This document shows positions 8,528 through 11,342 of a stretch of DNA of 64,000 bases, in pieces. Numbering within the stretch: the stretch's first letter is position 1; each line of letters begins with the position of its first letter. Origin of the DNA: Halosimplex halophilum. Lineage in GTDB: Archaea > Halobacteriota > Halobacteria > Halobacteriales > Haloarculaceae. The notes beneath the pieces were generated by a model. The model worked only from the letters and a program-made list of their open reading frames with translations. It searched no databases and had not been told where the DNA came from. The DNA is taken from positions 827,972-891,971 of the forward strand of contig NZ_ML214298.1 in assembly GCF_004698125.1 (NCBI RefSeq). Reading direction: 5' to 3'. The position numbers were made by a program, and so were the translations under genes.

Positions 8528-9369
8528 GGAACGTCGCTCAGAACGCCGAACTCGCCCTGTTGCTCGAAGTCGCGGGAACCCCGAAGCCCGGCAACGTCGA
8601 CCGCCGCCGGGAGTACGATGACCTCCGGTTCGAGCACTTCCTCGCCGGCGCTGTCGGGGCTCAGGAGGGGCTCCGGATGGCCGCCGACGGCGAGCCGCTC
8701 GGTGGGTCGTTCCAGCGAGCGATAGAGGGGATGAGCGAGCAGCGCGGCGGCAACACCCAGTTCGGCGCGATCCTGCTCCAGCTCCCGCTCGTCGCGGCTG
8801 CGGGCGACGACGACCGGGAACTGTCGCCCGAGGGTGCAACGGCGGTGGTCGAGTCCACGACCGTCGCCGACGCGGCGGGCTTCTACCGCGCCTTCGAGGC
8901 GGTCGACGTGGCCGTCGACGACCCGCCCGAGGACATGAGCGCGCTGGACGTGCGCCGCGGGGCCGACGCCGTGTCTGCGCTGGAGGAGCGCGGGCTCACG
9001 CTCGCCGACATCATGGAGCGGTCGGCCGACCGCGACGGCGTCGCCCGCGAGTGGGTCGAGGGCTTCGAGCGCACGTTCGCCGCCGCCGAGTCCATCGGAT
9101 CGGGCGACCCCGACCGACCGGTCACCGACCGCGCCGCAGACGCGTTCCTCGAACTGCTGGCCGCCGAGGTCGACACCTTCGTCGTCACCAAACACGGCCG
9201 CGCGACCGCCGAGCGGGCGACCGAGCGCGCGCAGGCGGCGCTCGACGGGGAGGTCGACCCCGAGGAACTCGCCGAGGAGTTCGTCGCCGAGGGGATCAAC
9301 CCGGGCACGACCGCCGACACGGTCGCCGCCGCGCTGTTCGTCGCGCTGGAGCGGGGGCTCGAAATATGA
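8524..9369 (+). CDS. CitG/MdcB-like triphosphoribosyl-dephospho-CoA synthase family protein
   Basis: The GTG at 8524 overlaps the preceding stop and gives a 281-residue protein beginning [33 protein letters not shown]. The TPKPGNVD segment, QRGGNTQFGAILLQLPLV and the late HGRATAE and FVAEGINPGTTADTVAAALFVAL are hallmarks of the CitG/MdcB family. Bacterial members make the prosthetic group precursor of citrate or malonate lyase, but no lyase genes are present here. Archaeal members commonly sit beside cofactor genes, so a phosphoribosyl transfer in a pterin or F420-type pathway is a reasonable inference, not a demonstrated function. Confidence 0.78.
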   Translation: MRNVAQNAELALLLEVAGTPKPGNVDRRREYDDLRFEHFLAGAVGAQEGLRMAADGEPLGGSFQRAIEGMSEQRGGNTQFGAILLQLPLVAAAGDDDRELSPEGATAVVESTTVADAAGFYRAFEAVDVAVDDPPEDMSALDVRRGADAVSALEERGLTLADIMERSADRDGVAREWVEGFERTFAAAESIGSGDPDRPVTDRAADAFLELLAAEVDTFVVTKHGRATAERATERAQAALDGEVDPEELAEEFVAEGINPGTTADTVAAALFVALERGLEI

Positions 9370-9944
9370 CCGGGGAAACGGGCTGGCCCGTCGAACTCTC
9401 GGGCGTCGTCGAGTCGGTCGTCGCCACGCTCGGCCCGAACGACCGCTGGAACGTCGCCGCGCTCGGCCTCCACGCCGGCGACCCGGTCACTGCCCGCACC
9501 TACGGCCGCACGCGCACGCGGCGCAACTTCCGCGAGCGCGACGGCGGGGTCGTCCAGTTCACCCGCGACCCCGTCGCGTTCGTCGACGCCGCGCTCGCGG
9601 TCCACGAGGTCGACGAGCCTGTCCTCGACAGCGCCGACGCCTGGGTCGAGGTCGAGGCCGAGCGCGTCGGGAGCGACCGCGAAGGCGACACCGAGATAGT
9701 GACGTGGGAGCTCCGCCCGACCGACAGCGGCGTCGAGCGACGGGTGGTCCCGACGACGAACCGCGGCTTCTACGCGGTCGTCGAGGCCACTGTCGCGGCC
9801 TCGCGGCTGGACGTGCCGGGCTACGACCGCGGCACGTTGCTCGACCGGCTGGCGTACTTCGAGACCGTCGTCGAGACCGCCGGCGGCGAGCGCGAACGGG
9901 CCGCGTTCGACCGGATCGACGAGTTGGTCGACGCGGAGTGGTGA
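9366..9944 (+). CDS. DUF447 family protein
   Basis: The 192-residue product starts at the ATG overlapping the upstream stop. Recognisable family features are ESVVATLGPNDRWNVAALGLH near the N-terminus, an RTYGRTRTRRNF segment, and TTNRGFYAVVEATVAASRL toward the C-terminus, matching the DUF447 family as I recall it (probably a flavin-type split barrel). The function is unknown. As last member of the cofD unit it is a candidate accessory enzyme of cofactor synthesis. From memory, DUF447 and CitG-like genes also occur together in methanopterin gene clusters of methylotrophic bacteria, which supports that reading but should be verified. Confidence 0.7.
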   Translation: MTGETGWPVELSGVVESVVATLGPNDRWNVAALGLHAGDPVTARTYGRTRTRRNFRERDGGVVQFTRDPVAFVDAALAVHEVDEPVLDSADAWVEVEAERVGSDREGDTEIVTWELRPTDSGVERRVVPTTNRGFYAVVEATVAASRLDVPGYDRGTLLDRLAYFETVVETAGGERERAAFDRIDELVDAEW

Positions 9945-9999: not shown

Positions 10000-10285
10000 C
10001 ACCGCGAACAGCGTGAAAGCCCCCGATTGCTCCGGTCCCGGGGCTCGTTGCGCTCCTCGGTCGTTACACTCCCTGCGGTGCTTACGTCGCCCGGGTTCCC
10101 GGAGCAATCGGCCCCTTTCATTCCCACCCGCGTCGGCTGGCCGGTCAGTCTGTGCGGGCAGGAATGAAAGGGGCGACGCGTTCGACGAAGCCCGACGAGG
10201 CAAGCACTGGAACGAGCGAAGCGAGTGAAGCGCGCAGCGAGGCGCGCGAGTCGAACGCGTCGGGGCTTTCACGCTGTTTGCGGTG
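10000..10285. repeat. Inverted-repeat cloverleaf element (four-way junction)
   Basis: Within the 438-base gap between DUF447 and moxR, four sets of inverted repeats abut exactly. The outer stem 10000-10023/10262-10285 pairs over 24 positions with one G-T wobble. Arm 1 is 10024-10035/10099-10110 (CGATTGCTCCGG), arm 2 is 10111-10124/10161-10174 (GCCCCTTTCATTCC) and arm 3 is 10175-10185/10251-10261 (GACGCGTTCGA). No base is left unpaired at the junction. Arm 1 has a further CCCGGG/CCCGGG stem (10037-10042/10090-10095). No credible gene overlaps it. Its TGAAAGGGGCGACGCG motif resembles one in the repeats at 3279 and 63041. Confidence 0.85.
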
Positions 10286-10382
10286 CTGGCGTCCCTGTCT
10301 GCTGCCGGAGTCCTCGTGCGGTCGCAAGTTCGCCCGACTCCGAGGCCGAAAGCATTTGGTCGGACGGTCCCGGACGGCGTGT

Positions 10383-11342
10383 ATGGACTACGACGAGGCG
10401 GGGCGGGTCTGCCGGCGGATCCTCGACGCGGTGGGCGAGGCGGTCATCGCCGACGACCGGTTCCTGGAGCAGGTCCTGACGGGCGTCCTCGCGCAGGGTC
10501 ACGTCCTGCTGGAGGACGTGCCCGGGACGGGCAAGACGCTGACGGCGCGGTCGTTCGCCAGCGCGCTCGGGCTGTCGTTCTCGCGCGTGCAGTTCACGCC
10601 CGACCTGCTGCCCTCGGACATCACGGGGTCGAACGTCTACAACGAGGCGACCGGCGACTTCGAGTTCGTGCCGGGACCGGTCTTCTCGAACGTCGTGCTG
10701 GCCGACGAGATCAACCGCGCGCCGCCGAAGACCCAGGCCGCGCTGCTGGAGGCGATGGGCGAGGGCCAGGTCACCGTCGACGGCGAGACGACGGCGCTGC
10801 CAGACCCCTTTTTCGTCATCGCGACGCAGAACCCCATCGAGCAGGAGGGCACGTTCGGCCTGCCCGAAGCCCAGCGCGACCGCTTCGTGTTCAAGCTCGC
10901 GATGGGGTATCCGGGGTTCGACGACGAGCGGACGCTGATCGACCGCCGCGCCGACCGGACGAGCAAGTCGCCGAGCGTCGACCCGGTGGTCGACCCGGAG
11001 ACCGTCGGGGAGCTGCAGGCGGTCCCCGAGACCGTCTCCGTCGACGGGAAACTGCGGGACTACGTGGTCGAAATCGGGCGGGCGACCCGCGAGGACGACC
11101 GCGTCGACGTGGGCGTCTCGCCGCGGGGCGTCCAGCGGCTGTTCGAGGCCGCGCGGGCGGCGGCCGTCATCGAGGGGCGCAGCTACGTCGTCCCCGAGGA
11201 CGTGCGCCGGGTCGTCCACGCGACGTTCGCCCACCGGCTCGTGCTGACGACGGAGGCGAGCGTCCGCGACGCCGACCCGGCCGACGTCGTCGACGACGTG
11301 CTGGAGCGGGTCGCCGTGCCGGCCGTCGACGAGTCGCGGTAG
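10383..11342 (+). CDS. MoxR-family AAA+ ATPase
   Basis: The 319-residue protein is a MoxR/RavA-type AAA+ ATPase: Walker A DVPGTGKT (about residues 45-52), the MoxR-specific RVQFTPDLLPSDITG, Walker B NVVLADEINRAPPKTQAALLEAM, sensor VIATQNPIEQEGTFGLPEAQRDRF and a C-terminal lid. MoxR proteins act as chaperones that mature protein or enzyme complexes, usually encoded beside DUF58 and transglutaminase genes. Here the partners lie immediately downstream but on the opposite strand, convergent, rather than in the same operon. The frame is open upstream through the cloverleaf element, but homology begins at the ATG at 10383. Confidence 0.92.
   Translation: MDYDEAGRVCRRILDAVGEAVIADDRFLEQVLTGVLAQGHVLLEDVPGTGKTLTARSFASALGLSFSRVQFTPDLLPSDITGSNVYNEATGDFEFVPGPVFSNVVLADEINRAPPKTQAALLEAMGEGQVTVDGETTALPDPFFVIATQNPIEQEGTFGLPEAQRDRFVFKLAMGYPGFDDERTLIDRRADRTSKSPSVDPVVDPETVGELQAVPETVSVDGKLRDYVVEIGRATREDDRVDVGVSPRGVQRLFEAARAAAVIEGRSYVVPEDVRRVVHATFAHRLVLTTEASVRDADPADVVDDVLERVAVPAVDESR

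Follow-up and report, generated by a model that had tools for sequence, protein, structure and literature searches.

What is the four-way arrangement of inverted repeats that lies just upstream of a moxR gene in Halosimplex, and does its structure matter to the cell? The region was examined as a window of 64,000 nucleotides. A sequence-only reading had described an outer stem of 24 base pairs and three arms with stems of 12, 14 and 11 base pairs, abutting with no unpaired base at the junction, and it considered a chance arrangement very unlikely. We re-measured the stems, and the observation holds: all four are as described, except that the stem of arm 3 has 12 base pairs and not 11. The single exception in the outer stem is a G-T pair, and there is no spare base at the junction. 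The coordinates are collected below.

Features of the cloverleaf element and its flanks, in window coordinates (G000 is the genome of the window; R1 is the covariance model of the unit described in the text)
Position	Strand	Feature	Supporting observation
10000..10023		5′ half of outer stem, terminal inverted repeat CACCGCGAACAGCGTGAAAGCCCC	24 bp with one G-T against 10262-10285; core ACAGCGTGAAAGCCCC conserved in Halosimplex copies
10262..10285		3′ half of outer stem, GGGGCTTTCACGCTGTTTGCGGTG	re-measured stem
10015..10130	-	hairpin unit 1 as modeled by R1 (its GNA strand is the minus strand)	R1 hit G000:C2:837986-838101:-, 133 bits, E 1.4e-21
10155..10270	+	hairpin unit 2 (its GNA strand is the plus strand), inverted relative to unit 1	R1 hit G000:C2:838126-838241:+, E 3.6e-20
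10024..10110		arm 1: variable, perfect 12-bp stem CGATTGCTCCGG/CCGGAGCAATCG plus inner helices	predicted fold; re-measured stem
10111..10174		middle arm: conserved GCCCCTTTCATTCC/GGAATGAAAGGGGC stem formed between the inner ends of the two units	perfect 14 bp, with more pairs after a small internal loop
10175..10261		arm 3: variable, perfect 12-bp stem GACGCGTTCGAC/GTCGAACGCGTC	apical GCGAAGC mini-hairpin
9362..9944	+	upstream flanking gene	no Pfam or NCBIfam match
10383..11342	+	downstream flanking gene, MoxR-type AAA ATPase	AAA_3, AAA_lid_2

The predicted minimum-energy fold, which had been proposed in advance as a check, shows the same cloverleaf. Folded as RNA the element has -187.4 kcal/mol (z -10.97, with 0 of 100 shuffles as good), and folded as DNA it has -102.1 (z -8.42) on the plus strand and -100.9 (z -9.65) on the minus strand, with 0 of 200 shuffles as good in each case. 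Chance is excluded because the structure recurs in other copies with different stem sequences that still pair. The natural unit, however, is not the whole cloverleaf. The element consists of two hairpin units of ~116 nt in inverted orientation.

Is this a lone feature of the moxR locus? A search of the window's own genome, which the sequence-only reading had asked for, found 14 places with the element or parts of it. Each full copy is a near-palindrome of about 285 bp made of two inverted hairpin units. We refer to the strand that reads CGGGYGGGAMTGAAAGGGGC-[12-bp stem]-...-[stem′]-GGGGCTTTC as the GNA strand. Relatives carry it widely, and a pattern scan of named genomes found at least 120 loci, all haloarchaeal among those inspected. 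The covariance model R1 finds 13-43 units per Halosimplex genome, and units in 243 of 292 genomes of the class Halobacteria. In a phylum sample it gave 54 hits, all inside the class and within the same order. A scan of the whole window against Rfam matched only a tRNA, and a pattern scan of IMG/VR together with a BLAST against phages returned nothing, so there is no sign of a viral element in these collections. Literature searches with the element's own sequence and by topic, which covered open-licence papers only, gave no earlier description, and a 2010 survey of structured RNAs does not mention halobacteria. The family is apparently undescribed in the literature searched. It would be among the most widespread structured non-coding elements of the haloarchaea, present in most genomes sampled.

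The absence of homologs with compensatory changes had been named beforehand as the outcome that would count against the structure, and we find the opposite. In an alignment of 63 units, 22 of 30 pairs have double changes, 97.8% of cells are paired, and there are 417 double-changed cells versus 133 in shuffled alignments. All measures exceed all 500 shuffles and all slid controls. The 12-bp stem was used to pick the units, and it is therefore biased, but the inner helices were not, and they covary too (helix 3 and helix 5). The inner and apical pairs include 702 Watson-Crick, 16 G.T, 4 A.C and 31 other cells. In 163 distinct 12-bp stems, 1846 cells are Watson-Crick, and on the GNA strand the mismatches are G.T 48, A.C 18 and others 44, so that strand looks like the structured one. 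Conserved mismatches recur (A.G at columns 46/92, G.A at 45/93 and 57/81), and a GNA triloop, closed by C-G in most units, is present in 52 of 62 units with an apical hairpin, versus 7% of shuffles. GNA loops such as d(GCGAAGC) make extraordinarily stable DNA mini-hairpins (PMC4686876).

Is the folded molecule RNA or DNA? A structured non-coding RNA, in which the GNA strand would be transcribed and the hairpin would function as RNA (a regulator, riboswitch-like or trans-acting), is a main rival. The very strong covariation, the conserved internal A.G/G.A mismatches and the excess of G.T over A.C on one strand fit RNA as well, and 60 of 65 Halosimplex sites lie upstream of at least one gene. 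On the other hand, G-T/U pairs are rare (2.5% of stem cells on the GNA strand), many changes are G-C to C-G with no wobble step, and the apical loops are of the DNA-type C-GNA-G. The scarcity of wobble pairs, the DNA-type loops and the strand bias point to single-stranded DNA without proving it. No RNA control, such as the tRNA stems of the same genomes, was completed, and there were no data on expression, binding or strand state. Moreover, the two-armed element carries one sense and one antisense unit on each strand and inverts in place, which an RNA gene would tolerate badly, and copies come and go at a site. The RNA reading is not excluded, but we consider it unlikely; folded DNA fits better. 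Covariation between Watson-Crick pairs with few wobble steps also offers a test case for telling selected DNA folds from RNA folds.

We next looked at how the element behaves at shared sites. Twelve of the 14 sites of the own genome are occupied at the same place in at least one other Halosimplex species. All 65 Halosimplex sites examined are intergenic (48 tandem, 12 divergent, 5 convergent), according to a simple home-made gene finder and with sites that are not independent. GC-rich hairpins in intergenic gaps could suggest a transcription terminator or an mRNA-end stabilizer, but with only 5 of the 65 sites between convergent genes, and no T-run as part of the conserved unit, this reading is very improbable, in agreement with the sequence-only reading that the element does not look like a known terminator. 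Between orthologous sites, 64 of 82 changed stem pairs are full replacements of one Watson-Crick pair by another. Some pairs of species keep 98-99% arm identity while the flanks are at 86-88%, and in three such cases the whole element or the matched arm is inverted relative to its flanks. Arms are also lost or gained. The two arms of one element often start with opposite base pairs (one C-G type, one G-C type), an observation not tested statistically, which would keep them from pairing with each other in one long hairpin.

At the moxR locus itself the element is full in G000, in the related genomes G002 and G004, and, inverted, in Halosimplex pelagicum R2 (G003). It is collapsed in G007 and absent in G006. 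The link to moxR therefore looks incidental, and a special tie to that gene is not supported. The insertion boundaries in Halosimplex could not be drawn from the empty site in G006 (locus L238; loci are numbered with L), because it differs by more than the element. In G006 an IS6-family insertion (L251/L268) sits at the locus that in G000 carries a one-armed element (L233). A double-stranded cruciform site for a chromosome-organizing or junction-binding protein would be compatible with near-palindromic, intergenic elements with gap-free junctions, at roughly 6-19 places per Halosimplex genome and mostly at shared loci. But many genera carry the one-armed form, sites are lost in close relatives, and the G.T asymmetry points to one strand, so we regard the cruciform as improbable.

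Can the element move? In other genera, recent copies are ~377-bp MITEs with IS6-type ends and 8-bp target duplications. In one such genome (G267) several copies are nearly identical and carry GGTACTGTTTAGATTAGC... and ...GCTTATCTAAACACTACT ends, with target duplications TCGAACCG (L260) and TCAGCGAC (L261). Two other copies of that genome (L257 and L258) appear to have exchanged flanks, since a flanking 8-mer of one (CTCGCGAC) equals the opposite flank of another, suggesting recombination between copies and a chromosomal rearrangement. Similar ends lie mostly 39-42 nt outside the core in several other genera. Of 243 outer ends, 33 score >=10 versus 2 controls, although the scoring matrix was drawn partly from these ends. 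Target duplications, read by eye, are perfect in L260, L261, L034, L266 and L044, and agree at 7 of 8 positions in L144, L058 and L079. The same kind of end borders genes for an IS6-family transposase (NF033587, 191 bits), and archaeal IS6 elements typically make 8-bp duplications (PMC6807381, PMC7986276). By contrast, the Halosimplex copies lack recognizable IS6 ends. There is no GTRSTGTTYAGATWAGC in the own genome and no such end near the window element, so the window copy is either an old derivative or moved otherwise, and how it arrived is not shown.

These observations raise the possibility of an inert MITE, in which the fold is only a by-product and pairing is kept by template-switch correction between the arms of a palindrome during replication, with no selected function. 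The IS6-type ends, the target duplications, and the deletions, inversions and losses at the same site favor this reading, and the Watson-Crick to Watson-Crick double changes are what arm-to-arm copying would give. However, arm-to-arm copying should also erase the conserved mismatches, internal loops and triloops, which instead persist across the class. The 98-99% conservation at sites with flanks at 86-88% suggests selection, which a plain MITE does not need. This, together with the plasmid arrangement described next, makes the inert reading doubtful.

BLAST of plasmids found one-armed units. Of 17 plasmid regions opened, 15 have a gene of about 285-300 codons, annotated as DNA-binding protein, OB-fold protein or hypothetical, that points away from the unit, with its start 423-617 bp from it in the 14 measured. 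Eleven of the proteins were aligned, and they share a C-terminal OB fold related to replication factor A. An example of the plasmid RPA-like proteins is WP_254534065 of Natrinema gelatinilyticum. Starting from the protein instead, 12 of 20 best loci in 20 genomes have a unit (E < 1e-4) within 1.5 kb, always upstream and always with the GNA strand as the template strand of the RPA/SSB-like gene. With 13-43 units per genome, we estimate that a 3-kb target would hold one by chance about 1-3% of the time. The association is not universal: 8 of the 20 loci lack a clear unit, and the RPA-like gene of the own genome (L307) has none within 1.5 kb. The non-coding gap of about 0.5 kb between the gene start and the unit (L276-L286) contains several further highly conserved inverted repeats (e.g. 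GCGCTCTCGCTCGCGCCTTCG, GCCCGGAATGGTCGGTCGCGA), as might be expected of an origin or leading region.

Our preferred reading, to which we give a probability of about 0.6, is that the feature is a two-armed chromosomal copy of a haloarchaea-wide family of foldback DNA elements. Each arm is a unit whose GNA strand folds into a long hairpin with a freely varying but nearly always paired 12-bp stem, fixed internal mismatches and apical GNA triloops. The analysis demonstrates the family itself, its covariation, its mobility as IS6-ended miniature transposons in several other genera, the inversion in place with loss or gain of arms, and the linkage of a one-armed form to an RPA/SSB-like gene on plasmids. 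What we infer, beyond this, is that the unit acts as folded single-stranded DNA, exposed during replication or DNA transfer, and is recognized by a protein, for which the RPA-like product is the candidate. On plasmids it would probably serve the single-stranded stage, for example as a start site for priming or transcription on a single strand. The copy near moxR is most likely a settled descendant of the mobilized form and not a moxR regulator, while the analysis gives no reason why Halosimplex keeps old copies at fixed sites. The interpretation in the sequence-only reading, which offered a structured RNA, a cruciform target for a protein or a mobile hairpin element, is thus partly supported, the last option being supported for the family.

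How does this family compare with known systems? IS6-family MITEs of haloarchaea are already known (ISFinder lists MITEHarch3; PMC6807381, PMC7986276), and share the IS6-type terminal inverted repeats, the 8-bp target duplications, the lack of a gene and a size of a few hundred bp. Here the interior is a conserved, covarying folded structure, and the Halosimplex and many other copies lack the IS6 ends. The sequence of MITEHarch3 was not compared with the family. REP/BIME/REPIN repeats with RAYT transposases are also dispersed extragenic hairpins, often an inverted pair, with a presumed single-stranded stage, but the units here are ~116 nt with multi-part folds and not 20-40 nt, the own genome has a single Y1_Tnp match, which is not at an element, and the linked plasmid gene is RPA-like. 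In integron attC sites the structure is also conserved while the stem sequence varies, and one folded strand is the active one. The units here were not seen as arrays with gene cassettes, and no integrase link was looked for. Haloquadratum SMRs and PATEs (PMC3119063) are small haloarchaeal repeats without a transposase and with inverted repeats or palindromes. SMRs make no target duplication and PATEs have IS605-type ends; kinship by sequence was not examined.

In the F plasmid, a folded single-stranded DNA promoter, Frpo2, lies upstream of ssb (PMC9849209). The plasmid members have the corresponding arrangement, a non-coding folded element upstream of an SSB-like gene with the structured strand as template, whereas the window copy has no such neighbor. 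The likeness is of layout only; our elements are archaeal, have no known sequence relation, and are also dispersed on chromosomes. A more speculative reading, which we hold only tentatively and for which transcription or priming from single-stranded DNA was not assayed, is an archaeal counterpart of the bacterial single-stranded promoter/primer site: a plasmid-borne folded single-stranded DNA element that switches on an RPA-like gene when the DNA is single-stranded, and that has spread over haloarchaeal chromosomes in transposon-borne two-armed form and been kept at fixed sites. The gene linkage makes it possible to ask whether archaea use folded single-stranded DNA in plasmid replication or transfer, a poorly known area.

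The family also includes variations on the unit. In L008, L013, L054, L057, L078, L092 and others, the arm loops hold extra small hairpins of a shared repertoire (GAGAGAGCTTCGCTCTCTC, GAAAATCTTCGATTTTC, AAGGCGCTTTGCGCCTT), as if hairpins were inserted into hairpins. A variant unit in L063 (near 1500), L067, L093 and L097 keeps AAAGCCCC..GCCCCTTTCA and the variable stem but has an unrelated interior with ATATTC/GAATA motifs. The elements may also affect gene annotation. Halar_0093 (L271, 1488-2021), annotated as a hypothetical protein, overlaps the unit and may be spurious. In the window the arms also give an open frame in phase with moxR (SEASEARSEARES; ORF 10152-11342), so a start about 230 bp too early is possible in automatic annotation.
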